A stretch of DNA of 21,622 bases from a virus, in the IMG/VR virus record IMGVR_UViG_3300044655_000583, positions 1-21,622 of that record; one strand, given 5' to 3'. The translations under genes were made by a program, and so were the position numbers. Below, piece after piece: positions 595 to 15,738 of this stretch. Every line of letters begins with the position of its first letter. The stretch's first letter is position 1. The notes under the pieces were generated by a model. That model saw only the letters and a program-made list of their open reading frames with translations, was not told the DNA's origin and made no database searches.

Positions 595-810
595 ATGAAG
601 CAGCCGAAAGTTTTAATAAGCCAATACGATGAAGCTCCTGAATTTAGGAACTTCGATTTTGTCATCGCAGATGTGATTGGAATTTATGTATTGGATGCTG
701 AACAAATGGGGATCATGCTAAATGGCTTTGAGTATATTTTAGAGTTTAATACTGAATTATATGATGAGATAAAAAAGAATATTGTCATAAAAAATTTAAT
801 GAATGCTTGA
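595..810 (+). CDS. Hypothetical protein (71 aa), first rightward gene
   Basis: This acidic 71-residue protein begins MKQPKVLISQYDEAPEFRNF and has alternating hydrophobic segments (FDFVIADVIGIYVLDAEQ). There is no signal peptide, membrane segment or recognised motif. The start is supported by the TAnnTTTG-like box ending 5 bases upstream. Its end overlaps the sigma-like gene by 8 bases, so the two are probably translated together. It could be a small partner of that regulator, but only position supports that. Confidence 0.65.
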   Translation: MKQPKVLISQYDEAPEFRNFDFVIADVIGIYVLDAEQMGIMLNGFEYILEFNTELYDEIKKNIVIKNLMNA

Positions 811-1267
811 AGAATTAGCAAAGCGAGATAAAGATTGGCGAAAGATGGCATTTCACATTTGTAAAAGCCATGATACCGCTGACGATATTGTCCAAGATAT
901 GTATCTTAAATTTGCTAACTACGATAAAAAGGTCAATGATTTTTATATTTACTTTGCAATCAAATCCATTTGGCTCGATAAACTAAAGGACAAAAAAACA
1001 AAAACAGTTGAACTGATTGATAATTGTAATACCTTTGCTGATACTTACGATTTTGAATTAGATGAAATAAAAGAAATAACATTAAAAAAAGTAAAACAAT
1101 TACCTTTTTTTGAACGTGAACTTTTAAAAGTAACAACCCAAGAGATGAGCCAACGAGAACTATCTCGACAAACAGGCATAAATCTTTTAGTGATTCAGAA
1201 AACGGTTAAAAAAACAAAAGAACAACTATGGGAAGACGTAAAAAAATTACAGGAGCGGGAGATATAA
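803..1267 (+). CDS. Phage sigma-70-like RNA polymerase sigma factor
   Basis: The 154-residue protein has the two-domain layout of small ECF-like sigma factors. Residues about 17-37 contain ADDIVQDMYLKF, typical of sigma region 2. Residues about 100-142 form a region-4-like unit: LPFFERELLKV, then a helix-turn-helix with MSQRELSRQTGINLLVIQKT. The linker is short and acidic. Such proteins redirect host RNA polymerase to specific promoters or act as DNA-binding transcription activators. It overlaps its neighbours on both sides (8 bases before, 40 bases after) and lies just before the terminase genes, a normal place for a late-gene regulator. I infer that it may recognise the TCGTTATA leaders at 3069, 10901 and 13604. 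It is shorter than many ECF factors, so activity as a stand-alone sigma is not assured. Confidence 0.75.
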   Translation: MLEELAKRDKDWRKMAFHICKSHDTADDIVQDMYLKFANYDKKVNDFYIYFAIKSIWLDKLKDKKTKTVELIDNCNTFADTYDFELDEIKEITLKKVKQLPFFERELLKVTTQEMSQRELSRQTGINLLVIQKTVKKTKEQLWEDVKKLQEREI

Positions 1268-1583: not shown

Positions 1584-1868
1584 ATGGATAATAGAGCAAA
1601 TAATGGCGGACATAGTACAGCAGGGAAAGCCGGAAGGCCATCACAAAGAGATGAATTAAAAGCGATTGATTTAGCAAGTCCACATATTGAAAGTGCGTTT
1701 AGAACTATTGCAGAAATAATGATTAATCCTGATGAAAATTCAAAAGATAGAATAACAGCAGCGAAAATTCTAATTGAATATGGATGCGGTAAACCAAAAG
1801 AAACAGTTGACCAAAATGTAAATATTAATAACTTTGATTTAAAAGATATTATTAAATTTAAAGAGTGA
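1584..1868 (+). CDS. Terminase small subunit-like protein
   Basis: The 94-residue protein lies directly before the large terminase and overlaps its GTG start by 4 bases. The N-terminus carries KAGRPSQRDELK, a basic G-R-P-S segment seen in many small terminases of this type. A helical middle follows (ASPHIESAFRTIAEIMIN), then ITAAKILIEYGCGKPKETVD, in which the Y-x-x-G-K-P-K-x-x-V/T-D ending is characteristic. Small terminases bind the packaging site and load DNA onto the large subunit. It is shorter than classical versions, which often have an extra HTH domain. The start follows an AATT leader. Confidence 0.8.
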   Translation: MDNRANNGGHSTAGKAGRPSQRDELKAIDLASPHIESAFRTIAEIMINPDENSKDRITAAKILIEYGCGKPKETVDQNVNINNFDLKDIIKFKE

Positions 1869-3067
1869 TAACTCTCAACAATAAATACAAATCTTTATTT
1901 GAGAATGATACTCGTTACTTTATAGTTACAGGTGGCCGAGGTTCAAGTAAATCATTCGGGGTTGGTACTTTTACCAATCTCTTATCATTTGAGCATGGCC
2001 ATAAAATATTATTCACTCGTCAGACAATGACAAGTGCGCATCTTTCAATTATACCGGAGTTCCAAGAAAAGATTGATCTAATGCAATTGAATCAATTGTT
2101 TGAGGTCACAAAATCGGAAATAAGGAATAAGCAATCCAATAGCGAAATAATATTTAAAGGGATAAGAACTTCAAGCGGGGATCAAACCGCAAACCTTAAA
2201 TCGCTCCAGGGAGTTACGACATGGGTACTCGATGAAGCTGAAGAACTAACTGACGAAAGCACCTTTGACAAAATCAATTTATCCATCCGGCAAAAGGGTA
2301 AACAGAACAGAGTTATTTTAATCCTTAACCCAAGCACAAAAGAACATTGGATTTATAAAAAGTTCTTTGAAGAACGTGGAGTTCAAGAAGGATTCAATGG
2401 AGTTAAAGACGATGTAACTTATATACATACTACATACGAGGATAACCTTGATAACCTTGACCAATCTTTTATAAATGAAATACTGCGCATAAAAGAAACC
2501 AATCCGCAAAAATATAAACACCAAATACTTGGCGGATGGCTTAACAAAGCGGAAGGAGTTGTTTTCAATAATTGGCGAATTGATAATTTTGAAGAAGTAG
2601 GAACGGTTATATTCGGACAAGATTTTGGATTTAGTATTGATCCAACAACTTTGATAAAAGTATCAATTGACAAAGCCAAAAAGCGCATTTATGCAAAGGA
2701 ATATTTATATAAGCCATCGTTAACTACAAGCGATATTTATTACGAAAATTTACGATATTGCAATAAGTCTTTAATTGTAGCCGATAGCGCAGAGCCAAGA
2801 CTTATTCAAGAATTAAAGAGCAGGGGTTTAAATATAAAAGGAATTAAGAAGCCAACTATAATTGACCGTATTGCTTTGGTCCAAGATTATGAATTGATAG
2901 TTGACAGCGAAAGTTCCAATTTAATTAAAGAATTGAATAATTACGTTTGGCACGATAAGAAAAGTCAAACACCTATTGACGATTACAATCACTTACTCGA
3001 TGCCCTTGGATATGCTGTTTGGGATTTAATCGGTAACTCTCGCAAATCAATATCTGACTTTAGATAA
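1865..3067 (+). CDS. terL: Terminase large subunit (ATPase and nuclease)
   Basis: The 400-residue packaging motor has a Walker A-like motif GGRGSSKS at residues 23-30 and Walker B WVLDEAEE at 120-127 (D123, E124). The motif ILNP at 153-156 fits the coupling motif. The C-terminal RNase H-like nuclease shows acidic residues D253 (GQDFGF), D307 (VADSAEP) and D373/D379 in DDYNHLLDALGYA. The length is usual for the PBSX-like terminase family. The start is GTG, overlapping the small subunit stop as GTGA, which suggests coupled translation. The protein pumps DNA into the prohead and cuts the concatemer. Confidence 0.96.
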   Translation: MITLNNKYKSLFENDTRYFIVTGGRGSSKSFGVGTFTNLLSFEHGHKILFTRQTMTSAHLSIIPEFQEKIDLMQLNQLFEVTKSEIRNKQSNSEIIFKGIRTSSGDQTANLKSLQGVTTWVLDEAEELTDESTFDKINLSIRQKGKQNRVILILNPSTKEHWIYKKFFEERGVQEGFNGVKDDVTYIHTTYEDNLDNLDQSFINEILRIKETNPQKYKHQILGGWLNKAEGVVFNNWRIDNFEEVGTVIFGQDFGFSIDPTTLIKVSIDKAKKRIYAKEYLYKPSLTTSDIYYENLRYCNKSLIVADSAEPRLIQELKSRGLNIKGIKKPTIIDRIALVQDYELIVDSESSNLIKELNNYVWHDKKSQTPIDDYNHLLDALGYAVWDLIGNSRKSISDFR

Positions 3068-3068
3068 A

Positions 3069-3098
3069 ATCAAAACGTTTTTTTGTCGTTATAATGGT
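3069..3098 (+). promoter_or_regulatory. Repeated leader motif, copy 1 (putative phage late promoter)
   Basis: ATCA (3069-3072), 13 bases containing a T run, TCGTTATA (3086-3093), 5 bases, then ATG at 3099. The same elements with the same spacing precede the starts at 10931 and 13634. The motif differs from the host TAnnTTTG box. It lies in the only gap between the terminase and the tail-gene block. A promoter giving a nearly leaderless transcript, or a translation-start element, would both fit. Confidence 0.6.
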
Positions 3099-3692
3099 AT
3101 GAAGTTAAACATACCAACATCGCTACAGGATATCACACTAAATCAATTTGTAGAGTTTCAAAACTCGGAGCAATCTAATCATGATTTAGTATCAATCTTT
3201 TGTGAAATTGAAAACACAAATCTATTACAGTTAAAAGACTTTCAAGAAATAACTGAAATAGTTACAAATGCTTTAAATAGCAATCCTAATTTTTATCGCA
3301 GATTTATTTATAAAGGCATTCACTATGGATTCATTCCAAAGTTGGATAACCTTTCAACTGCTGAATATATTGATTTGGAAATGTATATGTCAAAGCCGGA
3401 AACATTTTACAAAGCGATGGCGATATTATATCGACCTGTTGTAAAGTTTAAACGTAATTGGTTTAAAAAGACAGAGCCATTTTATGATATTGCTCCTTAT
3501 ACAGGAACGCATGAAATATTTAAAGATGCTCCAAGTGAATATTATTTGGGTGCGTGTGCTTTTTTTTTCGCTTTACTGAACGACTTAGGAAGTTACACAG
3601 TGGACTATTCGATGTCTATTTTGAAAAAGAGCAAACAAGGGAGAGCCTATTTAACGCAAAATGGGGATGGTATGTTAGCATCCGAGCTTTAG
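3099..3692 (+). CDS. Putative tail assembly chaperone-like protein, short (0-frame) form
   Basis: The 197-residue protein starts MKLNIPTSLQDITLNQFVEF and is mostly helical, with no membrane segment or catalytic motif. It heads the block after the terminase and is preceded by the repeated TCGTTATA leader. Its last 130 or so bases overlap a -1 frame that stays open to 3820, and slippery sequences lie in the overlap. A short product plus a -1 frameshift extension is the hallmark of lambda G/GT-type tail assembly chaperones, and the neighbouring genes are neck and tail genes. However, such chaperones normally lie immediately before the tape measure, which here is 5 kb away. The role is therefore tentative; a structural protein split by a sequencing error is the main alternative. 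Confidence 0.6.
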   Translation: MKLNIPTSLQDITLNQFVEFQNSEQSNHDLVSIFCEIENTNLLQLKDFQEITEIVTNALNSNPNFYRRFIYKGIHYGFIPKLDNLSTAEYIDLEMYMSKPETFYKAMAILYRPVVKFKRNWFKKTEPFYDIAPYTGTHEIFKDAPSEYYLGACAFFFALLNDLGSYTVDYSMSILKKSKQGRAYLTQNGDGMLASEL

Positions 3693-3820
3693 CAGAATTG
3701 AACCACAAAGAAGAAGAAGAAGTTTTAGAATATCCAATTACAAAAACATTAAGGATATTGGAGTTTGAAAAAGAAAAAGCAGAGTGCGCAACTGAAATGA
3801 TTAAAAAGCATAACAAATGA
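3554..3820 (+). CDS. -1 frame extension of the preceding gene (frameshift product C-terminus)
   Basis: This frame is open from before 3554 to TGA at 3818-3820. The only initiators are poor (GTG at 3554, inside the upstream gene), so it is unlikely to start on its own. The distal part looks like genuine protein: FNAKWGWYVSIRALAEL, then an acidic run, and LRILEFEKEKAECATEMIKK. Its stop overlaps the next start as ATGA (3817-3820), the coupling used at other gene junctions here, while the 0-frame stop at 3692 leaves a gap of 124 bases. Both points favour translation of this frame through a -1 shift from the gene at 3099, giving a fusion of about 240 residues. Confidence 0.55.
   Translation: MCFFFRFTERLRKLHSGLFDVYFEKEQTRESLFNAKWGWYVSIRALAELNHKEEEEVLEYPITKTLRILEFEKEKAECATEMIKKHNK
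3560..3629 (+). promoter_or_regulatory. Candidate -1 programmed frameshift region
   Basis: Two slippery candidates lie in the overlap of the two frames. Nine T residues at 3560-3568 followed by C give T TTT TTC in the correct phase (3563-3569), a textbook X XXY YYZ heptamer. At 3623-3629 G AAA AAG is also in phase, with slippable tandem lysine codons. The first matches the consensus better. The second would keep a more natural codon choice in the stretch between them, where the -1 frame uses CGC, CGA, AGG and CTA. I cannot decide between them from sequence alone. Confidence 0.5.
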
Positions 3821-4272
3821 GAGGATTTTATTTAACGATTGAACTATTAAAAGAGTTGCTCCAAGAGGATGTCAATGTTCATACTATTGTACATGGATTA
3901 AAGTCGGGAATGGATATAAATAAAAAAAATGTATTCCCTTTGGCACATTTGCAGGTAACATCTTCAACTGCTGACAATCAATTTATATCTTTTACGTTTG
4001 AGGTTGCTGTTGTTGATTTGAGAAATATAAGTAAAAAGATAGTAACTGATAAATGGTTGCAAAACGATAACGAGTTGGATAATCTTAACACTTGCCACGC
4101 TGTTCTAAATAGATTGGTTACAAAGTTAAGATTACAAAATAATGCTGATAAGATTGAACTGAATAACATCCCTATTTTAACCCCGATTATTTTTGAAGAT
4201 ATGAACTTGTTGGATGGGTGGCGAACTGAATTAGAGTTGATAATCCCTAATAACGAAATCAATGTCTGTTAG
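3817..4272 (+). CDS. Probable tail completion / neck protein
   Basis: The 151-residue protein alternates helices and strands: LTIELLKELLQED at the start, a strand-rich middle (NQFISFTFEVAVVDLRN), then helical LNTCHAVLNRLVTKLRLQ, and an acidic end with WRTELELIIP. This size and pattern resemble tail-terminator or tail-completion proteins that cap the tail tube at the neck. The assignment also relies on the next gene, an HK97-gp10-like neck protein, which commonly accompanies such proteins. The start overlaps the previous -1 frame stop as ATGA and the end overlaps the next gene by 11 bases. No catalytic motif is seen. Confidence 0.5.
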   Translation: MRGFYLTIELLKELLQEDVNVHTIVHGLKSGMDINKKNVFPLAHLQVTSSTADNQFISFTFEVAVVDLRNISKKIVTDKWLQNDNELDNLNTCHAVLNRLVTKLRLQNNADKIELNNIPILTPIIFEDMNLLDGWRTELELIIPNNEINVC

Positions 4273-4804
4273 TCAAAAAAATACGGAGATAGCATTGAAG
4301 CAATTTATAAACGAGGTTGTTTCAAAGGCACGTACAAATTTAGCACGTAAAGGCAAAAACGCAACAGGCAATTTATCGAAGTCAATTAGTGGCGATTTTA
4401 AAGTAAGTCCTAACAGCTTTGAGATTTCATTTTCTATGGAAGATTACGGAACGTTTCAAGACTTGGGAGTTAAGGGTGCAAGGTCAAGTAGTAAAGCACC
4501 AAACAGCCCTTATAAATTTGGAACAGGAACAGCACCGAAAGGAATGTTTAAAACTGCTATCAATGCTTGGGTAATTAGAAAAGGAATAGCACCGAGAGCA
4601 AATGGCAAGTTTGCAAGTAGATCACAAATGCTTTTTAATATTAGAAGGTCGATATTCAATACAGGATTAAGGCCAAGTTTATTTTTTACTGATGCCTTTG
4701 CAGTTGGATTTAAAGGATTAGACAATACAATATTAGAAGCATACGGATTAGATGTTGAATCGTTTTTAAAATATAGTTTAGAAGATAATGGGAAAAAGGC
4801 TTAA
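4262..4804 (+). CDS. HK97 gp10-like neck/head-tail joining protein
   Basis: The 180-residue basic protein has the layout of the HK97-gp10-like family. An N-terminal helix with ARTNLARKGKNATGNLSKSI is followed by a strand region ending in MEDYGTFQDLGVKG, where the Y-G-x-x-x-D-x-G turn is the family's most recognisable feature. The second half has KGMFKTAINAWVIRKGIAPR, a basic segment, and RPSLFFTDAF. Members sit at the head-tail interface. It lies between a tail-completion-like gene and a tail protein gene, overlapping both by 11 and 17 bases. Confidence 0.7.
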   Translation: MSVSQKNTEIALKQFINEVVSKARTNLARKGKNATGNLSKSISGDFKVSPNSFEISFSMEDYGTFQDLGVKGARSSSKAPNSPYKFGTGTAPKGMFKTAINAWVIRKGIAPRANGKFASRSQMLFNIRRSIFNTGLRPSLFFTDAFAVGFKGLDNTILEAYGLDVESFLKYSLEDNGKKA

Positions 4805-6194
4805 TATAATTTTAGATAGCAACCCTACAAACGGAACGAGTTTTTTGTTTTCTGTTAATGTGGTTAGCGAATATCAAACCAATTATTTTAGCGGGGTTTT
4901 TAAAACAACTCCGGTAAATACAGATGATATATTAATTGGAGTTGATGCTAACGCTTCAGCAACAAATTTACTTACCTATTTACAAGCATTTGCAGTTCCC
5001 GATTATATTACTTTTACAAGAACTGCTAATATAGTTCATTGTGATGTTGAGCCTGACAATTCAAGCGAAGGAAATATCAATATAAGTTATAGCGGAACTG
5101 CCGGAATTACTTATGAAATAATTAACACCAATGTTGAGTTGCCATTGACTTATGCTTTAGTAAGAAGCACCTATTCTTTGCGCATAACTCCAAACGTTTT
5201 ATTTGATACTGTAACAATGGAGTTCTTTGCGTATAGTCCTGATGTAAATACATTGCCAACATTACCTAACTATCAACTATCAAAGCAAGTTGTTCAGTTA
5301 GGACAAAGCACAATATCTTTTGACATTAACCACTTGATAAAAGAAAATACAAATCCAAGCATTGATAATTATCTTTTGGCAGGAGTTCAGCCAACTCAAC
5401 CCGATGCGACATGTTGGGTAAAATATAACGCTTTGTGCTTTGATTATAACGATCAAGTTTTTCAAGTTGAGGGAACACTTTTAGCGATGTACGGTTATGG
5501 ATATTTTAACGAGGGTTTCAATCCACAATTAACGAGCAAAGTTTTAATATCAAATAACAATCAAAGACATTTCAGAGATAACGATAATAGGCTTTATTTT
5601 ATAACTGATGGGTTGACTTCTTTAGAGGTTAATGGTGATGCAATTACTATTACTGCCAATTTGGATTTGAATACAGAGTACATTCAAAGCATAAATTTAA
5701 AAGACTACGATACTGATGATGTTATAGTTTGTGAGTTTGTTTATGAGGATGAAACTCGAACAATTACTTACGATGTTTTAGATGGCTGTATTTATCCGGT
5801 TATCAATTGTGTATTTATAAATAAGTTCGGATTTCCACAATCGTTTTTTCTTACATTGGTAAACAAAATAACTGACGATGTTGATGGCGAAGATTACAGA
5901 GGGTTAACTTCTAATTTCGGGATTTATAATACAACGGATCATCAATATAGCACATTTAATTTAAATGGAAGAAGCGCAATTATTTGTAATACTGATTATT
6001 TGAGTGAAGAAGAAAATGAGAACGTAAAACAAATGCTATTGTCAGAGAAGAAATGGTTTATTGAAGATGGCGAGATACTTCCGGTTAATTTAGAAAGCAA
6101 ATCAGTAGCTTATAAAACGCAATTAAATGATAAGTTAATACAATATTCGTTTAACTTCAAATATTCATTTGACATTATAAATAACGTACAATAA
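4788..6194 (+). CDS. Large tail-associated structural protein (468 aa)
   Basis: The protein is beta-rich throughout, acidic, with many N, T, D and aromatic residues, no membrane segment and no enzymatic motif. That composition is typical of virion proteins. It starts 17 bases inside the neck gene and ends in a TAATG junction with the next, larger tail gene. I recognise the general type from Bacteroidota phage tail modules but cannot name a function; baseplate hub, distal tail or adhesin scaffold are possible. A cytoplasmic enzyme is unlikely given the sequence character and neighbours. Confidence 0.65.
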   Translation: MGKRLNIILDSNPTNGTSFLFSVNVVSEYQTNYFSGVFKTTPVNTDDILIGVDANASATNLLTYLQAFAVPDYITFTRTANIVHCDVEPDNSSEGNINISYSGTAGITYEIINTNVELPLTYALVRSTYSLRITPNVLFDTVTMEFFAYSPDVNTLPTLPNYQLSKQVVQLGQSTISFDINHLIKENTNPSIDNYLLAGVQPTQPDATCWVKYNALCFDYNDQVFQVEGTLLAMYGYGYFNEGFNPQLTSKVLISNNNQRHFRDNDNRLYFITDGLTSLEVNGDAITITANLDLNTEYIQSINLKDYDTDDVIVCEFVYEDETRTITYDVLDGCIYPVINCVFINKFGFPQSFFLTLVNKITDDVDGEDYRGLTSNFGIYNTTDHQYSTFNLNGRSAIICNTDYLSEEENENVKQMLLSEKKWFIEDGEILPVNLESKSVAYKTQLNDKLIQYSFNFKYSFDIINNVQ

Positions 6195-8662
6195 TGATAG
6201 GAACTAACCTATACATACAAGACATAAACAACCCCGATAATTTTATAAAGGTTGATTTATTCAAGGATGAAAACTTTGAGTTAAATTCAAGCGTTCAAAA
6301 TATAAATGATATTTCAAAAACGTTCAGTGATTTTAGTCAGAGTTTTACAGTTCCAGCAAGTGATACAAATAATAGAATATTTCAGCACTATTATAATTCT
6401 GATGTCGATGGAAGTTTTAACCCTAACATTCGTGTAAGCTCATTAATTGAAATTGGTAGTTTGCCATTTAGATTTGGTCTTATTCAGTTGGAAGATGTTA
6501 AATTAAAAAATGCTCAACCTACAAGTTACACAATTCGTTTCTTTTCTAAAGTAGTAAACCTATCTGATAGTTTTGGAGATGATGACTTGACAGTTTTAGA
6601 CTTGTCAGAGTTTGACCATGATTTTACAAGAAGCATTGTTTTCAATGCAACTCAAAATGAAAGTATAAATAATGGTGATGTTTATTATCCTTTGATTTCA
6701 AGTATTAGAAACTTTCAAATTGGAACAGGAAATACGGATGATATTACAAATGTTTTAGGTGAGATAAAATACACCGATTTAAAACCTGCTTTAAGAATCA
6801 TTAGAATATTAGAAGCAATAGAAAATAAATATAATATTTTATTTGATAGGGAGTTTTTAAATCGTGCTGCTTTTGGTAATTTGTTTATGTGGTTGCATTC
6901 TTATTCAGGCGAAATAAAAGTTTTTTCAACACCATTAAGTATAGATTATACAAGTTTATCAACTGTAATTGCTGATTGGAGTGTTCCAAGTCCGGAGATA
7001 AATATTACTACTAATTCGGTTGCTGTAAATTGGGATATTAATTTTAGTGCTTATAATATAAGACCAAATTATAAAAGAGCAAAAGTATTTGTTAAAATAA
7101 TTACAACATCTTCTTATCCTTATGTTTTAGAAGTTTTTGATAATGGTGTTTTATACAATACCTATAATAATTTATTTCAAACTACAACTACTCAAATTTA
7201 CAATAAAAGAGAAGATGGTGATTCCTCAAATCATTTATTTACTTTTAAAGTTTCAAGTATAGGCGGTAATTTAACTTTTACATCTCAATTAAGATATGAA
7301 GGTTGGATATATTATTATCCTTTAGATTGGCCACCTATTGCTGTTTCACAAAGAATTTTAACTGCAACTTCAGCAAGTCAAACAACAGCTAATTCTATTT
7401 TAAAAATATCTGAACAAATACCAAAGTTAAAAGTTAGAGATTTTATAACTTCAATTATAAAAATGTTCAATTTGGTTTTAACACCAATTTCGAATAATAC
7501 CTTTTCTTTTATTCCTTTGGATGATTGGTATAGTAAGGGTAAATTAGTTGATATTACCAAATACATAGATACAAAAGATATTACAATTAAAAAACCAAAG
7601 CTATTTAAAAGAATAGACTTTAAACATCAAAAATCGGGGCAAATACTCAACGAACAATTTAGAGAAAATAACGGTCTTGATTTAGGTTATGGGGATTTGG
7701 CTACGACATACGATATTGATGGCGGTGAATTGAAAGTTGAAACGCAGTTTGATAACTTAATGTTTGAGCGATTAACTGATAGATCAACAGACGATATCAC
7801 AAATGTTCAAGTTGGAAAATCTATTGACAAAACTTTACAGCCTTATATCGGAAAGCCTTATTTGTTTTATCGTGCAGGTTATCAATTTTATGATTTACCA
7901 ATTAAGGCAGATGGCCATTCTGATTTAGATTATACTTGGTTTACATCAACTGAAAATGATAGTAATTTTGACCAAGTTACACAATCGGTAAACTTTTCTG
8001 CTGATGTAAGTACTTTTTTGTATTCTGAAATAACAAATAATCTATTCAGCAACTATTGGCAAGACTATATTTCGGACTTATATTCAACAAAAAGACGATT
8101 AGGAAACTACCGAGCGCAGTTACCAATAGGCAAAATGATTGATATTAACCTAAATGATAGGATACAGATAAGCGATAGGACATATATCATTAACTCAATG
8201 AGGTCTAATCTTACCACAGGAGAGGTAAATTATGAATTATTGAACTATATCGGTGCGCCTTATAAAAGTATAAATTCAATTATACCGATTACAGTTGATA
8301 CTATTGAATACTCGGTTGATACAACTGAAATAAGTGCGGATGCTACTTATTATTATTTGCCACAATATTCACCATTTGATAATGGCATTCAATACACAGA
8401 ATTATTTGCTACAAGTGGAGCGCAAGATTATGATTTAAAAATACTTGCAAATAGTCCTTATGTAGTTACAAAAGTTGATACAGGTGATGGTGTTGGATGG
8501 GTTGATTTAGAAAATACTTTTGGAAATACAAGTGCTTATCTTTTAATCAAAGTTTCAGAGTACACAAGCGCAATAACAAATCCGACAAATATAAGAAGCA
8601 TGGAATTAGAGGTAATTATAGGACTTGACACATTTACATTAACAATAACACAAACACAATGA
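6194..8662 (+). CDS. Large tail protein with a C-terminal BACON-like domain
   Basis: The 822-residue protein begins MIGTNLYIQDINNPDNFIKV. Its N-terminal region includes DISKTFSDFSQSFTVPAS and SLPFRFGLIQLEDVKLKN, a pattern I associate with large tail proteins of Flavobacterium-type phages. The central part is beta-rich with aromatic residues. Residues about 737-822 look like a BACON-type Ig fold: SGAQDYDLKI, then a W in VGWVDL, spaced strands, and the ending TLTITQTQ, close to the typical I-T-Q close of BACON domains. BACON domains in phage proteins are thought to help bind glycans or mucin. It starts in a TAATG junction. A role in host recognition or at the tail tip is inferred. Confidence 0.7.
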   Translation: MIGTNLYIQDINNPDNFIKVDLFKDENFELNSSVQNINDISKTFSDFSQSFTVPASDTNNRIFQHYYNSDVDGSFNPNIRVSSLIEIGSLPFRFGLIQLEDVKLKNAQPTSYTIRFFSKVVNLSDSFGDDDLTVLDLSEFDHDFTRSIVFNATQNESINNGDVYYPLISSIRNFQIGTGNTDDITNVLGEIKYTDLKPALRIIRILEAIENKYNILFDREFLNRAAFGNLFMWLHSYSGEIKVFSTPLSIDYTSLSTVIADWSVPSPEINITTNSVAVNWDINFSAYNIRPNYKRAKVFVKIITTSSYPYVLEVFDNGVLYNTYNNLFQTTTTQIYNKREDGDSSNHLFTFKVSSIGGNLTFTSQLRYEGWIYYYPLDWPPIAVSQRILTATSASQTTANSILKISEQIPKLKVRDFITSIIKMFNLVLTPISNNTFSFIPLDDWYSKGKLVDITKYIDTKDITIKKPKLFKRIDFKHQKSGQILNEQFRENNGLDLGYGDLATTYDIDGGELKVETQFDNLMFERLTDRSTDDITNVQVGKSIDKTLQPYIGKPYLFYRAGYQFYDLPIKADGHSDLDYTWFTSTENDSNFDQVTQSVNFSADVSTFLYSEITNNLFSNYWQDYISDLYSTKRRLGNYRAQLPIGKMIDINLNDRIQISDRTYIINSMRSNLTTGEVNYELLNYIGAPYKSINSIIPITVDTIEYSVDTTEISADATYYYLPQYSPFDNGIQYTELFATSGAQDYDLKILANSPYVVTKVDTGDGVGWVDLENTFGNTSAYLLIKVSEYTSAITNPTNIRSMELEVIIGLDTFTLTITQTQ

Positions 8663-8814
8663 TAGGGAAGTTAGTAGAATTATTAAACACAATGGATTTT
8701 TATAACGGAAGCGAAAATATAGAATTTGCAAAAGGTGCTTATCGTTACCCAAGAACTTATAAAGAATTATTTAAAACAGTAAAAAGATGGCGATTAAGAA
8801 AACGATTGAAATAG
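8659..8814 (+). CDS. Small hypothetical protein (51 aa) before the tape measure
   Basis: ATG at 8659 overlaps the previous stop as ATGA, and the frame runs to TAG at 8812-8814, 28 bases inside the tape-measure gene. The product begins MIGKLVELLNTMDFYNGSEN and ends in a very basic segment, KTVKRWRLRKRLK. No family is recognised. The overlaps on both sides and the lack of any other use for bases 8663-8786 support a real gene. Position directly before the tape measure is where tail assembly factors are often encoded, but the protein is too short to call. Confidence 0.6.
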   Translation: MIGKLVELLNTMDFYNGSENIEFAKGAYRYPRTYKELFKTVKRWRLRKRLK

Positions 8815-10892
8815 ATGTTGATGTTGTACGTGCCAATGGCGGGTTAGATAACTTTACTCAAAATTTTAAAAAAACCGAGGAGGCAGCCAAGTCTTTAAAA
8901 ACTCAATTAAGAGAGGCTCAAGCGGAAGTAGCTGCCTTATCTGATAAGTTCGGAGCAACTTCAAAAGAAGCGGTTGAGGCATCAAAAAGAGCAGCAGATC
9001 TAAAAGATAGAATTGGAGATGCTAAAAATTTAACAGATGCATTTAATCCCGATGCAAAATTTAAAGCATTAAGCGCATCTCTTTCGGGAGTGGCCGGTGG
9101 ATTTGCCGCTTATCAGGGTGCAATGGGATTAGTAGGAGTTGAGTCTAAAGATTTAGAAAAACAACTTTTAAAAGTTCAATCTGCTATGGCTATCGCTCAA
9201 GGTTTCCAAGCATTAGGAGAGGCAAGAGATAGCTTTAAACAATTAAAGGCTGTTGCTATTGATGCGCTTAATGGTATTAAAAAAGCAATAGGAAGTACAG
9301 GAATAGGTTTGTTAGTTGTTGCATTAGGAACTATTTATGCTTATTGGGATGATATAAAAGAGGCAGTTAGTGGAGTTAGTGAACAACAGAAAAAACTAAA
9401 CGCAGAAAGCAAGAAAAATTTAGCGCAAGAGCAGGAAAAATTAAAAGCTATTGGTAACCAAGATGAGATTTTAAAACTTCAAGGTAAAAGTGAAAGAGAT
9501 ATTTTGAAAATGAAAATTGCTCAAACTGACCAAACTATTCTTGCTGCTAAAGTTGACCTTAAAAGAATTGAAACAACTAACGAACAACAACAAAAAGCGG
9601 TAGAACTAAACTATCAATATTTAAAATCTTTCATTGATTTTATATCTATACCCCAAAGACTTTTATTTGAAAATGGCGCAAAAGCTATAAATAAAGTTAT
9701 TGATTTAATTAATAAAATCCCCGGTGTTGAAATAAAAGCAAAGATTGATGAAAAGTTTGCAGAAAAAGCAGCGGATTATGTAACCAAATTAGGTTTTGAT
9801 CCTGCTAAAACAAAAGCAGAAGGAGAAAAAACAGTTAAAGAAGCTAAATTATATTTAGATGAATTAGCTAATGACAAAGCAGGTTTTCAAAATCAAATAA
9901 ATGATATAGATAAAAAAGCAGGTGAAGATGCTGCTAAAATAGCAGAAGAAAATGCTAAAATAGAAGAAGAAAGGTTACAAAAACTTAATGATTTATATGC
10001 TAATTATTTAAAAGCAAATCAAGATGCATCGGCAGTTACAGAACAAGAAAAACTTGACTTACAAAAACAACGTGATTTAGAAGAAATAAATCAATTAGCA
10101 AAAACAGAAAATGAAAAAGCAAATTTAAAAGCATTATTAGACGAAAAATATTTTAATCTTCAATTAGAATTAGACAAAAAATTAGCACAACAAAAAATAG
10201 CTAAAGAAGATGCCGAGTGGTTGCGATTACAAGAATTGTCAATGGAAAAAAGCGAGTATGAAAAACTTGTTTTAACCCAAAAATATGAGGCCGAATATTT
10301 AGCGGCTGAAGGAAATGCAGCATTACAAACAGAATTAAAAAAGAAACTTGAAAAGGATTTAGCTGATATTGACGATAAAGCTAAAGAAGAAGCTAAACAA
10401 AAAGAACAAGCCTTATTAGATGCTAAATTAGCTTTCGCTCAACAAGGATTATCTTTAGTTGCTGAAATAGCAGGGAAAGGTTCTAAAATAGGAAAAGCGG
10501 TTGCGGTTGCACAGGCTACAATTAGTGGAATCGAGGGTGTTCAAAATGCTTACTCAACTGCTCAAAAATCACCTATTACTATTGGATTCCCTGCATATCC
10601 GGTTGTACAAGCATCTTTAGCTGGAGTGTTTGCAGCCTTACAAATTAGAAAAATATTATCTACAAATGTGGGGAGCGCATCTGCTTCATCTGTTGGAGGT
10701 GGAGGCGGAGGTGGTGGAAGCGCACCTGCTCCGCCACAATTTAATATCGTAGGTCAAAGTTCAACAAACCAATTAAGTCAAACAATTGCAGGGCAACAAA
10801 ATAGACCAATACAAACTTATGTCGTGGGTAATCAAGTAAGCACACAGCAATCACTTGACCGTAATGCGGTGGCTACATCAACTTTTGGATAA
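8787..10892 (+). CDS. Tail tape-measure protein
   Basis: The 701-residue protein is largely helical and coiled. The N-terminus (residues about 20-80) has repeated K/E/A/L helices. Residues about 171-187 form a hydrophobic segment (TGIGLLVVALGTIYAYW). A long charged coiled region from about 200 to 560 follows. The C-terminus has the A/G-rich stretch GKAVAVAQATISGIEGVQNA and ends in a glycine run near residue 640 and a Q/S/T-rich tail. These features are typical of tape measures, which set tail length and reach the host during injection. By the usual rule of about 0.15 nm per residue, the tail would be roughly 100 nm. It is the largest helical protein in the block and overlaps the gene before it. 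Confidence 0.88.
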   Translation: MAIKKTIEIDVDVVRANGGLDNFTQNFKKTEEAAKSLKTQLREAQAEVAALSDKFGATSKEAVEASKRAADLKDRIGDAKNLTDAFNPDAKFKALSASLSGVAGGFAAYQGAMGLVGVESKDLEKQLLKVQSAMAIAQGFQALGEARDSFKQLKAVAIDALNGIKKAIGSTGIGLLVVALGTIYAYWDDIKEAVSGVSEQQKKLNAESKKNLAQEQEKLKAIGNQDEILKLQGKSERDILKMKIAQTDQTILAAKVDLKRIETTNEQQQKAVELNYQYLKSFIDFISIPQRLLFENGAKAINKVIDLINKIPGVEIKAKIDEKFAEKAADYVTKLGFDPAKTKAEGEKTVKEAKLYLDELANDKAGFQNQINDIDKKAGEDAAKIAEENAKIEEERLQKLNDLYANYLKANQDASAVTEQEKLDLQKQRDLEEINQLAKTENEKANLKALLDEKYFNLQLELDKKLAQQKIAKEDAEWLRLQELSMEKSEYEKLVLTQKYEAEYLAAEGNAALQTELKKKLEKDLADIDDKAKEEAKQKEQALLDAKLAFAQQGLSLVAEIAGKGSKIGKAVAVAQATISGIEGVQNAYSTAQKSPITIGFPAYPVVQASLAGVFAALQIRKILSTNVGSASASSVGGGGGGGGSAPAPPQFNIVGQSSTNQLSQTIAGQQNRPIQTYVVGNQVSTQQSLDRNAVATSTFG

Positions 10893-10900
10893 AAAAATAT

Positions 10901-10930
10901 ATCACTTAAAAAAAAAATCGTTATATAGTT
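10901..10930 (+). promoter_or_regulatory. Repeated leader motif, copy 2 (putative phage late promoter)
   Basis: ATCA (10901-10904), 13 bases with a ten-A run, TCGTTATA (10918-10925), 5 bases, then ATG at 10931. Spacing is identical to copies 1 and 3, although the homopolymer is A here and T there. It fills the gap between the tape measure and the head-gene block. Confidence 0.6.
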
Positions 10931-12040
10931 ATGAAAACATACGAGTTATTTTTATCGGATGAAGAAATACAAGGGATTGACTGCATTTCAGTAGTTGGAT
11001 CTCCGGCCATGGAGAGCAAGTTTATTGCTTTGGCAGATGAAAAAAAAGTACAATTTGCAAAAATCGATAATGAAAAGAAAATCTTATTAGGGGTTGCATT
11101 GATTCCCGAAAAAAAGATTTATCGATTTGACGAAAAAACAAAGGAAGAGTACTATGTTTATTTTTCTAAAGAAACAATAAAACGTGCCTCGGAATTGTAT
11201 CTTAAAAAAGGCAATCAAAGTAATGCAAATTTAGAACATTCTAAATATACTTTGAATGGCACAATTGTAGAGAGTTGGATTGTTGAAGATTTAGAAAAAG
11301 ATAAGACAGCATTATACGGAATTGATGCGCCTGTTGGCAGTTGGGTTGTGGCTATGAAAATAGAAGATGAGGAGCAATGGCAATTGTGTAAAGATAACGG
11401 AAGCGGATTTTCAATAGAAGGTATGTTTGACGAAAAAGTAACATTAACAAAAGTAAATATGGATTTTAAACAAATGAAAGATGATTTGCTAAATGAGTTT
11501 AAGACTCTTTTAGGCAAACAAGTTAAATTAGCCGAATGGAAGACAGAAGATGGCAGTTTAACATTGGTAACAGAAACTGAAATACCGGAGATTGGTGGTA
11601 CTATTTCAGTTTTAACTCCTGATGGAAATGTTCCTGCTCCAATTGGAGAGTATATCTTAAACGATGGAACTAAAATTTCAGTAGCAGAGGTTGGCATAAT
11701 TGCAGAGATTTCAGCAAAAGAAGAAGAAGAAGTAGTTGAAGCACCTGTTGAAGAAATGGCTGCTCCTGCATCAGTAAACACAAGTGAGGTTTCAGATTTA
11801 AAAAATGCTATTAGTTCAATGCTTATTAAATTCAATGAGAATTTAGAGCAAAGATTTTCAGCAATCGAAACTAAATTATCGGAGCAAATTAAAGAAAACG
11901 AAACTTTAAAAGTTGAACTTTCTGAAACTCCTGCGGTAACAAAAACAAAAGTAGCACCATTACAAGCTACAACAGAAAAACCAAAAACATTAAAAGGGCG
12001 TTTAGCATTATCATTAACAGAATTAAAAAATAAAAACTAA
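10931..12040 (+). CDS. Prohead protease (XkdF-like) fused to a scaffold-like C-terminus
   Basis: The first 175 or so residues look like the XkdF/S78-type prohead serine protease: VVGSPAMESKF near the start, KILLGVALIPEKKIYR, a histidine in NLEHSKYTLNG (H103), WIVEDLEKDKTALYG, and a serine in GSGFSIEGMF (S161). H103 and S161 are the likely catalytic pair. Residues about 175-369 contain acidic low-complexity sequence and a coiled coil near 289-330 (AISSMLIKFNENLEQRFSAI), ending in a basic tail, as expected for a scaffold. The protease would mature the capsid and remove the scaffold. The major capsid gene follows after 5 bases. The 369-residue length fits a protease-scaffold fusion. An internal start near M177 could yield scaffold alone, but I cannot show it. 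Confidence 0.8.
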   Translation: MKTYELFLSDEEIQGIDCISVVGSPAMESKFIALADEKKVQFAKIDNEKKILLGVALIPEKKIYRFDEKTKEEYYVYFSKETIKRASELYLKKGNQSNANLEHSKYTLNGTIVESWIVEDLEKDKTALYGIDAPVGSWVVAMKIEDEEQWQLCKDNGSGFSIEGMFDEKVTLTKVNMDFKQMKDDLLNEFKTLLGKQVKLAEWKTEDGSLTLVTETEIPEIGGTISVLTPDGNVPAPIGEYILNDGTKISVAEVGIIAEISAKEEEEVVEAPVEEMAAPASVNTSEVSDLKNAISSMLIKFNENLEQRFSAIETKLSEQIKENETLKVELSETPAVTKTKVAPLQATTEKPKTLKGRLALSLTELKNKN

Positions 12041-12045
12041 AAAAA

Positions 12046-12960
12046 ATGGCAACAACAACAACAGTAAACAGTTCCTATGCCGGAACGGTGGCAGGGGAAA
12101 TAATAGGGAAAGCTTTTAAAGAAGCAGATACTATTCAAAAAGGTTTGGTAACAATTTTACCAAACATTCCGGTAAAACAAGTAATCCGTAAAATTGATTA
12201 CGGAAATGGTCGTCAAGATTATTCATGTGGTTTCGCTCCTGCGGGAAGTGTAACACTTGACGAGGTAATTTTAGAGCCAAAGAAAATCAAAAACGAGGCT
12301 GAACTTTGTAAAGAAGATTTCAGAAATGTATGGGATACTGCTTCAATGGGATTCTCTGCTCACAATGACAATATGCCTGTTGATGAAGAACAAGCTTTAT
12401 TAGTAGAAATTTTAGCAGATACTGCTCAAGCAACTGATTCAGATATTTGGATTGGAGAGGCTACAGATGATGGTCACTTTGATGGATTCATTCCATTGTT
12501 TTTAGGTGATGCAACTGTAATCGATGTGGCATCACCTGCAACTATTACTGCTTCAAACGTAGTAGCTGAAATGCAAAAAGCATCAAACGCAGTTCCTGTT
12601 GCTTTGAGAAGAAAAGCTGATTTAGTATTCGCAATTTCTGCTGATGTGGCACAAGCTTATAACAATGCTTTAATTACTGCAGGAATCAATAATGGTTTAG
12701 GTGGTCAAGGTCAAGAATTGTATTTAGGAATGTACAAATTAGAAATCATCAACGGTTTACCTGCTAACACAATGGTAATCTACCAAAAGAAAAATCTTTA
12801 TTTTGGTACAGGTTTGCTTTCAGATCACAATGAAGTACGAATCAAAGACATGGATGAAACTGATTTGAGCGGAACAGTACGTTACAAAATGGTTTATACT
12901 GCGGGAGTACAATATGTGAGAGGATCTGAAGTTGTATTATACACAACTTACACAGTTTAA
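12046..12960 (+). CDS. Major capsid protein
   Basis: The 304-residue protein follows the protease-scaffold gene directly, the usual order. It begins MATTTTVNSSYAGTVAGEII. It has an extended early region with PVKQVIRKIDYGNG, an acidic helical region (MPVDEEQALLVEILADTAQA), and a strand-rich C-terminal half ending GVQYVRGSEVVLYTTYTV. These features and the size fit an HK97-fold coat protein. The gene is cleaner in codon use (more AAC and ATC) than its neighbours, as expected for the most abundant virion protein. A hairpin follows the stop. Identity rests on context, size and fold impression rather than a diagnostic motif. Confidence 0.82.
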   Translation: MATTTTVNSSYAGTVAGEIIGKAFKEADTIQKGLVTILPNIPVKQVIRKIDYGNGRQDYSCGFAPAGSVTLDEVILEPKKIKNEAELCKEDFRNVWDTASMGFSAHNDNMPVDEEQALLVEILADTAQATDSDIWIGEATDDGHFDGFIPLFLGDATVIDVASPATITASNVVAEMQKASNAVPVALRRKADLVFAISADVAQAYNNALITAGINNGLGGQGQELYLGMYKLEIINGLPANTMVIYQKKNLYFGTGLLSDHNEVRIKDMDETDLSGTVRYKMVYTAGVQYVRGSEVVLYTTYTV

Positions 12961-12968
12961 TAAATAAC

Positions 12969-12991
12969 AAGGCGGTTGAAAATACCGCCTT
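12969..12991 (+). terminator. Hairpin after the capsid gene, weak or partial terminator
   Basis: AAGGCGGT (12969-12976) pairs with ACCGCCTT (12984-12991) around a 7-base loop, giving a GC-rich 8-bp stem in a very AT-rich setting, 9 bases after the capsid stop. No proper U tract follows (TATTTAAAAC), so it may attenuate or protect the capsid mRNA 3' end rather than stop transcription fully. Confidence 0.55.
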
Positions 12992-13009
12992 ATTTAAAAC
13001 ATTATAATA

Positions 13010-13546
13010 ATGGCAGCGTGTGAATTTATAACGAACGGCAGACTTTTAGAATGCAAAAATTTTACAGGTGGTTTAGTTAATGCCTTTTTTGCTCCATTTT
13101 CAGATATTGGTGCAACGGTAGTTAATTCAGAACTTACAGGTTTAGGAACTTTAGATGAAGTTTTCAAATTTGAATTGAAAAATACAGGTAACACTTATGT
13201 TGAAACTGAAACAGCTTCAAGAGATAACGGAACTATTTTTTATGATAGTCAATTAAATTTGATGCTAACCGGCTTGACTGCTGCTTTAGTAAATCAAGCT
13301 AAATTGCTTTCAAGAGATAGAATGTTAATCTTTTTAGAAGATAACAATGGAACATACCATGCAATCGGATTGAGAAATGGTGTTGATAAAACAACAGGAA
13401 CAAGAGAATTAGGTGGTGCTTTAGGTGATTTTTACGGATTAAAAATGACTTTACAAGCGTTAGAGCCTCAAACTGCTCCAATATTATCAGGTGCAGCAGT
13501 AACTTCTTTACTTGCTTTGGTTTCTGACCAATATGTAAACGATTAA
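13010..13546 (+). CDS. Probable tail-tube / major virion structural protein
   Basis: The 178-residue protein starts MAACEFITNGRLLECKNFTGG, then has a strand-rich core: DEVFKFELKNTGNTYVETET, SRDNGTIFYDSQLNLMLTGL, and LGGALGDFYGLKMTLQALEP. I associate this C-E-x-x-x-x-G-R-L opening, the S-R-x-N-G-T-x-F segment and the G-G-A-x-G-D-x-x-G-x-x-x-T ending with abundant structural proteins of Bacteroidota phages, most likely tail tube. It lies directly after the capsid gene and before a strong terminator. A head decoration protein is the main alternative. Confidence 0.6.
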   Translation: MAACEFITNGRLLECKNFTGGLVNAFFAPFSDIGATVVNSELTGLGTLDEVFKFELKNTGNTYVETETASRDNGTIFYDSQLNLMLTGLTAALVNQAKLLSRDRMLIFLEDNNGTYHAIGLRNGVDKTTGTRELGGALGDFYGLKMTLQALEPQTAPILSGAAVTSLLALVSDQYVND

Positions 13547-13566: not shown

Positions 13567-13602
13567 AAAAGTCAGCGTATTGAGTTATGCTGACTTTTTT
13601 TG
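13567..13602 (+). terminator. Intrinsic terminator ending the capsid block
   Basis: AAAAGTCAGC (13567-13576) pairs with GCTGACTTTT (13589-13598), and the stem can extend by GTA/TAT including a G-T pair, leaving a TTGAGT loop. The right arm runs into seven T residues (13595-13601). This is a classic rho-independent terminator about 20 bases after the stop at 13546. The A-rich upstream arm would also make it work partly in the other direction. Confidence 0.85.
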
Positions 13603-13603
13603 T

Positions 13604-13633
13604 ATCAAAAACTTTTTTTTTCGTTATATTAGT
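13604..13633 (+). promoter_or_regulatory. Repeated leader motif, copy 3 (putative phage late promoter)
   Basis: ATCA (13604-13607), 13 bases with an eight-T run, TCGTTATA (13621-13628), 5 bases, then ATG at 13634. It begins within a few bases of the terminator's T tract. Transcription of the portal block must restart somewhere in these roughly 30 bases unless the terminator is read through, so this copy argues for a promoter rather than only a translation signal. Confidence 0.65.
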
Positions 13634-13924: not shown

Positions 13925-15738
13925 TGGGAGATTTAAGAACAATAAGTTTAAGCGCATTTGATACGCAGATTTTTGACGAGGTCAAGCCAAGCGGTAAAAC
14001 TTATGTATTAAACGGAAAAAATAATGAGGGTTATGATTATGTGATTAATCGCTACAAATATTCTCCAACAAACGCTGCTATTTTAGATAGTTACTATTCT
14101 TATACTTATGGCCAAGGATTGACCGCAAATTATATGGCTAATCAAGCTATTCAAATGGCTAAAGTTAACAAACTATTTACAAAAGATACAGTTCGTAAAT
14201 TAGTAAAAGATTATACCTTATTTCATGAATGTAGTTTTGAGATAATTTTAGGTAAAACAGGAAATGAAATTGCACAAATAAATCACTTGCCAAAAAATAA
14301 AGTAGTTCCAAATGAAGTTGATGAAAATGGAGTTATTAATTCATATTGGTATTCTTACGATTGGAGTGATACAAGAAAATATCCGCCAACTCAAATACCG
14401 GTATTTGTACAAGGTACAACAGAAAAAAAGACAGTCTTTGTAATTAAAGAATATTCAATAAACGATTTCTATTTTGCAAGGCCATCATATTATTCAGGGT
14501 TAAATTATGCTGAATTAGAGGAGCAAATTTCTGTTTATTGTGTGAACCACATTAAAAACGGATTGAGCGCAGGACATATAATAAACGTAAATGAAGGTGT
14601 TACTGATGATGAGGTTAAAACGCAATTTGAACGTAACATTATTAAAAAATGGACAGGCGCAAATAACGCTAATAAGTTTATCTTATCCTTTAACTCAAAT
14701 AAAGACAATGCCACTACAATTGAAACAATAACGATAGCAGATGCGCATCAACAATATCAATTTTTAACAGAGGAAGCGAGAAAGCAATTATTGACAGCTC
14801 ACAAAGTTGTAAGCGGTGCAATTTTAGGAATACAAACAGCGACAGGATTTAGCAGTAATGCGGATGAAATTGCAACAGCATTTGATGAAACAATGTTGAA
14901 TGTAATAACACCAATGCAAAATGCTTTAACTGATGGATTCGAGTACGTATTAAGTCAAAATCAAATTACTTTACAATTGTATTTTGAAAATTTAAGGGAT
15001 GTTGATGTTGAAAATAATAAAAATGAAAGTTCTTATAATGGAGCGCAAATTTCAAGTGCGGTAGAAATATTGCAAAATGTTAAAGATGGCATTTTAACAA
15101 AAGAACAAGCTATGGTTTTCTTAATTCAATTCTTGAAATTGGATAAAGATGTTGCTACTTCAATGTTCAATGTTGGAAATTCAGTTCAAAAACTATCAGA
15201 AGAAAAAAAAAAGATAGGTAGTGAACTTATTGAATTAGGCGAGGATGAAGATTTAGAGAATTACGAGTTAATAGAGTGCAAACCTGTTGACTATGAAGAA
15301 GAAGAAAAGTTATCTTATAAATTTGCCACAAGCACAGGAATTGCTAATTCAAATCGAAGAAGTATTTATGATACTGATTTTTATCTTTTTCGTTATAGAT
15401 ACGCAGGTAATTCATCACCTGAAAGAGAATTTTGCAAAAATATGATGAGAGCAAATAAGATTTACAGAAGAGAGGATATTGAAGCCATGGGTGATATAAC
15501 AGTTAACCCCGGATTCGGTAAACATCCTAACCCAAATAACCCTTATTCTATTTGGAAATATAAGGGCGGTGGATTGTTAAGTGCTACATTTACAGGGGGA
15601 ACTTGCAAACACTATTGGGAAAAATTAACCTATAAAATTAAAGATGTTAAACCTGATGTTAAATCACCAATTGCTATTGACGATGCGAAAAAAGATAGAG
15701 CAAGTGGAATAGCAGGGATAGCACCTCACGACATATAA
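13924..15738 (+). CDS. Portal protein with a C-terminal head-morphogenesis-like extension
   Basis: Residues about 1-425 look like a portal: AAILDSYYSYTYGQGL early, HECSFEIILGK, a wing/stem region with FILSFNSNKDNATTIETITI at 252-271, helices LTEEARKQLLTAHKVVSGAI, and AFDETMLNVITPMQNAL. Portals form the dodecameric channel for DNA packaging and the head-tail joint. After an acidic linker (about 435-462), residues about 477-570 contain REFC (C504), YRREDI, NPGFGKHPNP, and a G-T-C-K-H-Y-W box (C561, H563, W565), a pattern seen in MuF-like or head-morphogenesis proteins. At 604 residues it is longer than a plain portal. The start is in a TAATG junction. Confidence 0.82.
   Translation: MGDLRTISLSAFDTQIFDEVKPSGKTYVLNGKNNEGYDYVINRYKYSPTNAAILDSYYSYTYGQGLTANYMANQAIQMAKVNKLFTKDTVRKLVKDYTLFHECSFEIILGKTGNEIAQINHLPKNKVVPNEVDENGVINSYWYSYDWSDTRKYPPTQIPVFVQGTTEKKTVFVIKEYSINDFYFARPSYYSGLNYAELEEQISVYCVNHIKNGLSAGHIINVNEGVTDDEVKTQFERNIIKKWTGANNANKFILSFNSNKDNATTIETITIADAHQQYQFLTEEARKQLLTAHKVVSGAILGIQTATGFSSNADEIATAFDETMLNVITPMQNALTDGFEYVLSQNQITLQLYFENLRDVDVENNKNESSYNGAQISSAVEILQNVKDGILTKEQAMVFLIQFLKLDKDVATSMFNVGNSVQKLSEEKKKIGSELIELGEDEDLENYELIECKPVDYEEEEKLSYKFATSTGIANSNRRSIYDTDFYLFRYRYAGNSSPEREFCKNMMRANKIYRREDIEAMGDITVNPGFGKHPNPNNPYSIWKYKGGGLLSATFTGGTCKHYWEKLTYKIKDVKPDVKSPIAIDDAKKDRASGIAGIAPHDI

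Follow-up and report, generated by a model that had tools for sequence, protein, structure and literature searches.

The window analysed here, a stretch of 21,622 nt from a virus that is a phage of Bacteroidota, carries a small gene at 803–1267 (this and all other coordinates refer to the + strand unless stated) upstream of its structural genes, and raises the question of what switches those structural genes on. Phage sigma factors that turn on late or middle genes are familiar from T4 (gp55) and SPO1 (gp28/gp34), which are of sigma types, and serve promoters, unrelated to those of the window; Bacteroidota hosts use unusual promoters, which adds interest to late-gene control in their phages. 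The first-pass annotation of this DNA had proposed a two-step cascade, in which host polymerase makes a sigma-like regulator that then opens the late promoters. On the evidence presented below, it is highly likely that an ECF-type phage sigma factor, made from a host-read promoter, directs the host core polymerase to three late operons.

The 154-aa product of 803–1267 had been described as having parts resembling sigma regions 2 and 4, and on this the profile searches and the AlphaFold and Foldseek matches agree. Pfam Sigma70_r2 matches the window protein with an E-value of 1.4e-3 and a score of 18.8, which does not reach the cut-off of 24. Likewise, the NCBIfam models NF058625 (E=2.7e-9) and TIGR02937 (E=3.5e-8, score 33.3 against a cut-off of 42.9) match below their curated cut-offs. 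PHROG 1740, ‘RNA polymerase sigma factor’, matches at 5.5e-5, and there is also a match to PHROG 31712, which is labelled ‘unknown function’. The NCBIfam ECF superfamily model is matched by 37 out of 39 relatives at E <= 0.01, and a search of the PDB with a profile of 19 relatives identified RpoE of Bartonella (5uxx, 6e-4) and further ECF sigma factors. The complete phage P12024L encodes the ortholog, P12024L_35, at the equivalent position before the terminase; its annotation reads hypothetical protein, ‘Sigma-70 region 2’.

The AlphaFold model (mean pLDDT 77.5, pTM 0.44) has two helical domains separated by a short break, sigma region 2 at residues 9–74 (827–1024) and sigma region 4 at residues 84–153 (1052–1261). 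Foldseek matches of the model are to the ECF sigma factors SigL, SigE, SigH, RpoE, and SigW, with whole-model TM-scores that are low because the two domains are differently placed. Region 4 alone fits region 4 of Escherichia coli SigE on −35 DNA, with a TM-score of 0.81 on the target and an rmsd of 1.5. Within region 2, W12, D27, D28, V30, Q31, D32, M33, and Y34 are near-invariant among the 39 relatives, and this DD-VQDMY stretch (residues 27–34), which resembles sigma region 2.2, is consistent with a predicted binding to core RNA polymerase. The presence of sigma2 and sigma4 only, joined by a linker of fewer than 50 residues, is the ECF (group IV) architecture and is a feature of the 154-aa protein. 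With these structural features, and with the promoter features described below, the product of 803–1267 is an ECF-type sigma factor of the PHROG 31712 family.

The second question is how the sigma gene is itself expressed. The cascade had been drawn from a host-type −7 box said to end 5 nt before the sigma ATG. The box, TATCTTTG, is present at 582–589 and is kept in close relatives, however the ATG that follows it by 5 nt is that of a different gene, a 71-aa ORF at 595–810 that leads the sigma operon; the sigma ATG at 803 is 213 nt beyond the box. Since this ATG overlaps the stop of ORF 595, the two genes are probably co-transcribed. The two-step reading is amended in this respect, the host box serving the operon headed by ORF 595, and also in that the motif before the structural genes gains a −35-like half, as described below. 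The box fits TAnnTTTG, the housekeeping −7 element of Bacteroidota, and by this consensus match the gene for the sigma factor would be served by a host-type promoter. Of 93 distinct leaders of sigma operons, 34 contained TAnnTTTG, where 4.7 were expected from shuffling; the exact host box is thus seen in only about one third of these automatically found leaders. No confident family match was found for ORF 595 in the Pfam and PHROG searches.

The leader of the sigma operon contains TATCTTTG and is without the CGTTAT signal of the late genes, giving no indication of autoregulation. Positive autoregulation is frequent among ECF sigma factors, and is no longer regarded as a defining property (PMC8103513). 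Between 470 and 600 in the window the host-type boxes are divergent, with TATATTTG (535–528, − strand) directed toward a small leftward gene with an ATG near 497 and TATCTTTG (+ strand) directed toward ORF 595, an arrangement like that of an early-gene switch region.

The third question is which signal such a sigma factor might read. An octamer, TCGTTATA, had been reported before three structural-block starts, and it does lie exactly 5 nt ahead of the ATGs at 3099, 10931, and 13634. The octamer is the downstream half only of a signal with two halves, (A/T)(A/T)CAAAA and CGTTAT, ahead of the ATG. Late promoter 1 (3067–3093), with ATCAAAA from 3069 and TCGTTATA at 3086–3093, forms the leader of ORF 3099 and is the putative promoter of late operon 1, which by gene layout extends from 3099 to 10892 and contains the tail genes up to a tape measure-like protein. 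The terminase large subunit gene (1865–3067; Terminase_3, 2.5e-37) lies between the sigma gene and this promoter. Late promoter 2 (10899–10925), with ATCACTTA from 10901 and TCGTTATA at 10918–10925, sits ahead of the head protease gene, ORF 10931, with which late operon 2 (10931–13546) starts; in this operon Pfam and PHROG identify a head maturation protease and a major capsid-like protein. This operon is closed by an intrinsic terminator with a 13-bp stem and a T run (13567–13598), which precedes late promoter 3 (13602–13628; TATCAAAA from 13603 and TCGTTATA at 13621–13628) in the leader of ORF 13634. Late operon 3, identified from gene layout and PHROG, contains the portal and following genes from 13634 onward, listed to 20853.

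When both strands of the window were searched for the whole pattern, exactly three matches were found, all on the + strand and all at the heads of late operons (3099, 10931, and 13634); none was found at the internal genes of these operons. The TCGTTATA octamer alone is not enriched, with 29 one-mismatch matches against 24 expected. Its placement is non-random, with the octamer at exactly −13 in 3 of 26 gene starts and in none across 3000 shuffles. Another exact copy of TCGTTATA, the fourth, falls within the portal gene (15390–15397), where it has neither the upstream element nor a gene start; in several relatives an ATG, in frame or by chance, comes 3 nt after such a portal-internal copy.

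In 26 non-redundant leaders, from three different genes, the register is fixed, with the C of (A/T)(A/T)CAAAA at −28 and CGTTAT starting at −12. The distance from the AAC-type triplet to CGTT is 15 nt in the window clade, where the −35 element has ATC rather than AAC (ATC-N15-CGTT), and 16–17 nt in other clades, including P12024L. ECF promoters are characterised by an AAC in the −35 and a CGT in the −10 element, and those of EcfG by AAC and CGTT (PMC8103513). In the relatives and in P12024L the bipartite signal matches the ECF pattern of AAC and CGT 16–17 nt apart. The constant 5 nt to the ATG, seen across nearly all leaders, could also be expected of a signal for translation or for a leaderless start, or of an mRNA element, rather than of a promoter for the sigma factor. 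This is extremely unlikely, as there is a second element 15–17 nt upstream in a fixed register, the motif is found only at operon heads, in one case after a terminator, with internal genes lacking it, and the motif accompanies the sigma factor and varies in step with it.

Whether phages carrying the gene also carry the motif had been suggested as a check on the cascade. Homologues of the sigma factor down to approximately 30 % identity co-occur with AAC-N15-17-CGTTA(A/T) at late-gene starts, and the refuting condition named in the first-pass annotation, homologues occurring without such leaders, did not overturn the proposal. In P12024L, where the sigma factor is ~30 % identical, the bipartite signal is present at 6 of the 58 CDS starts and CGTTA at 7 of 58, compared with shuffled means of 0.14 and 0.30, respectively, and a maximum of 3; the signal-bearing starts are mostly those of structural genes. 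A strict regular expression with an 11–13 nt spacer, fitted to the window clade, missed sites of the P12024L type, and leaders were read genome by genome. Among terminase relatives of >50 % identity, nearly all encode the sigma factor 0.5–4.6 kb ahead of the terminase. In most of these sigma-bearing relatives the gene following TerL has the signal; in the P12024 group other late genes have it.

Loss of the sigma gene and loss of the signal also go together. In L225 (27.9 kb), L240 (40.8 kb), and L254 (39.8 kb), where TerL is 75–81 % identical, sigma matches are absent even at E <= 1, and no leader of this kind occurs in the parts that were read. Likewise, the signal is absent from six further sigma-less Bacteroidota phages (RAP44, jmh47_hp, Harreka_1, 6H, phi13:1, and BS-TP2). 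In L002, L003, L009, L012, L017, and L020, TerL has been swapped for one that is 30–37 % alike, with the sigma gene and promoter retained, therefore the signal follows the sigma factor and not the neighbouring gene. In L002, L003, L009, and L012, and also in L017 and L020, the sigma factor and the post-terminase gene remain 88–99 % identical or have clade-typical identity, a pattern of module swapping around the sigma gene. One diverged sigma homologue, in L159 (E 8e-34), has no such signal after TerL; the gene leaders of L159 look host-type (TATCTTTA) rather than like CGTTAT.

These distributions bear on the possibility that an alternative (ECF) sigma factor or other regulator of the host reads the signal, and that the phage protein has a different role, for example as an anti-host decoy. 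Bacteroidota hosts are rich in ECF sigma factors, and the MAG in which a near-identical phage contig is binned itself gives weak matches to the sigma profile. Against this, that 2.4-Mb MAG, possibly not that of the host, has 6 pattern matches compared with 5 for the reversed control, which is background, whereas two sigma-bearing phage records (33–35 kb) have 3 matches each and zero control matches. Together with the absence of the signal from sigma-less phages, and the covariation between its bases and one position in the phage sigma factor, this makes a host reader very unlikely. An origin of the sigma locus in a host genome was also considered and rejected: the profile scan of genome contigs matched one locus only, a near-identical 32-kb phage contig (L162, CANLAV010000016.1) binned in the Bacteroidetes MAG ZE-Jul18-81. 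The position of this contig in the MAG is possibly a hint of the host, or possibly a binning error.

The covariation links the phage protein to individual bases of the signal. Within a genome, the late promoters share their first two −10 bases in 61 out of 62 pairwise comparisons, against a mean of 41 and a maximum of 52 on permutation, as expected with one trans-acting reader. Every column of the sigma alignment was then scanned across 30 sigma lineages against the presence or absence of ‘CG’ at these bases. The column ranked first is residue 59, which lies in the last, DNA-reading helix of sigma2 (region 2.3–2.4; Asp59 in the window, codon at 977–979). It is acidic in all 20 CG lineages and in 3 of the 10 remaining ones (Fisher 6e-5, family-wise p=0.0065, with lineages taken as independent, promoter labels read by hand, and residue 59 noticed before the scan). 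Among the non-CG lineages, which are scattered across the sigma tree, residue 59 is N with TG (three lineages), N with AG (one), R with TA, and M and Q with CA; in three lineages the first base is changed (AG) and the acidic residue is kept. The second-ranked column, residue 62, lies three positions on in that helix and is not significant (corrected p=0.31). The −35 element also differs in the sigma groups L199, L204, and L221. Subgroups with an altered −35 (TTAAATTA, AGAAAAAAATAC) or −10 (CGATAATA, CGGTAATA) are L199/L194, L204/L208/L215, L221/L201, and L227–L246.

That residue 59 best predicts the −10 bases, and that the signal has the architecture of an ECF promoter, also weigh against another phage regulator being the reader, with the sigma-like protein acting as a co-factor or bystander. 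Small ORFs at 595 and 1228 travel nearby, and phiEco32 is known to require the co-activator gp79 (PMC8948821). Neither of these neighbours of the sigma gene had an informative family match in Pfam or PHROG, and no anti-sigma factor was recognised; a cognate anti-sigma gene close by is common for ECF sigma factors, although it does not define them. It is highly unlikely that such a regulator, rather than the sigma factor, reads the signal.

The reading preferred here is of an ECF-type phage sigma factor acting on its own late promoters. Based on consensus and conservation, host RNA polymerase with the main host sigma factor would transcribe the sigma operon from TATCTTTG. The phage sigma factor would bind the host core RNA polymerase, with sigma4 placed on CAAAA (−35) and sigma2 on CGTTAT (−10), and the two together would open the promoters and start the late operons at 3099, 10931, and 13634, presumably late in infection. 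If the first base of CGTTAT is placed at −12, transcription would begin on the A of the start codon, and the late mRNAs are therefore predicted to be leaderless or to have almost no leader. What was computed directly is the sigma fold, the two-part signal with its position, its joint presence and joint loss with the sigma gene, and the covariation of residue and bases. The cascade first put forward from this DNA gains support from the co-occurrence, the co-loss, the residue 59 covariation, and the host boxes upstream of sigma operons, and at the level of sequence a late-sigma cascade of the phage can be regarded as strongly supported.

The nearest proven systems would be those of phage 7-11 and phiEco32, which are likened here by mode of working and not by descent. 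In phage 7-11, which is phiEco32-like, gp47 (SaPh711_gp47) has been shown experimentally to be a late sigma factor, with bipartite late promoters of the form GTAAtg-16-aCTA (PMC8948821). As proposed for the window phage, it is a phage sigma factor working with host core polymerase on bipartite promoters upstream of late genes, with the early promoters read by the host sigma factor; it differs in host phylum and in promoter sequence, and the promoters of the window phage abut the ATG. In the Kuravirus phiEco32, gp36 is likewise an ECF-class phage sigma factor that binds host RNA polymerase and serves middle and late promoters (PMC7881722; PMC8948821), although its promoters have a single element and depend on gp79 (PMC8948821), whereas those of the window phage are of the canonical two-part ECF type. 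Canonical ECF sigma factors of the RpoE/SigW/EcfG type share with the window protein the possession of sigma2 and sigma4 only, and the AAC...CGT(T) promoter with 15–17 nt between. They differ in that the window protein is a late regulator of a phage, without autoregulation from its own motif and without a recognised anti-sigma factor. P12024L_35 and the P12024S homologue, from Nonlabens phages (Inhavirus; PHROG 31712), belong to the orthologous family and have the same site upstream of the terminase; the P12024L_35 record assigns no function, promoter, or regulon. A literature search, with most subscription journals outside its scope, found no paper describing these promoters, and no mechanism of late-gene control in small Bacteroidota phages was found described in the literature searched.

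A broader proposal, to which we give an even chance, is that PHROG 31712 is a widespread family of ECF sigma factors that run the late genes of many Bacteroidota phages from promoters starting at the ATG (leaderless), with residue 59 repeatedly re-tuned together with all of the late promoters. If so, this would provide a natural series of sigma-promoter specificity swaps. The reading preferred above, if right, would give a natural record of a sigma factor and all of its promoters shifting specificity jointly. It would also tell what a phage protein family annotated as unknown does and which genes it controls, yield a simple late-promoter signature for the genomes of aquatic Bacteroidota phages, and add orthogonal pairs of sigma factor and promoter to the few parts with which tools can be built in this phylum. 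As a minor observation on the records compared, the terminase of OQ791282.1, ‘Shigella phage Henu10’, has the same coordinates and identity as that of Riemerella phage PT15, and its host label looks doubtful.
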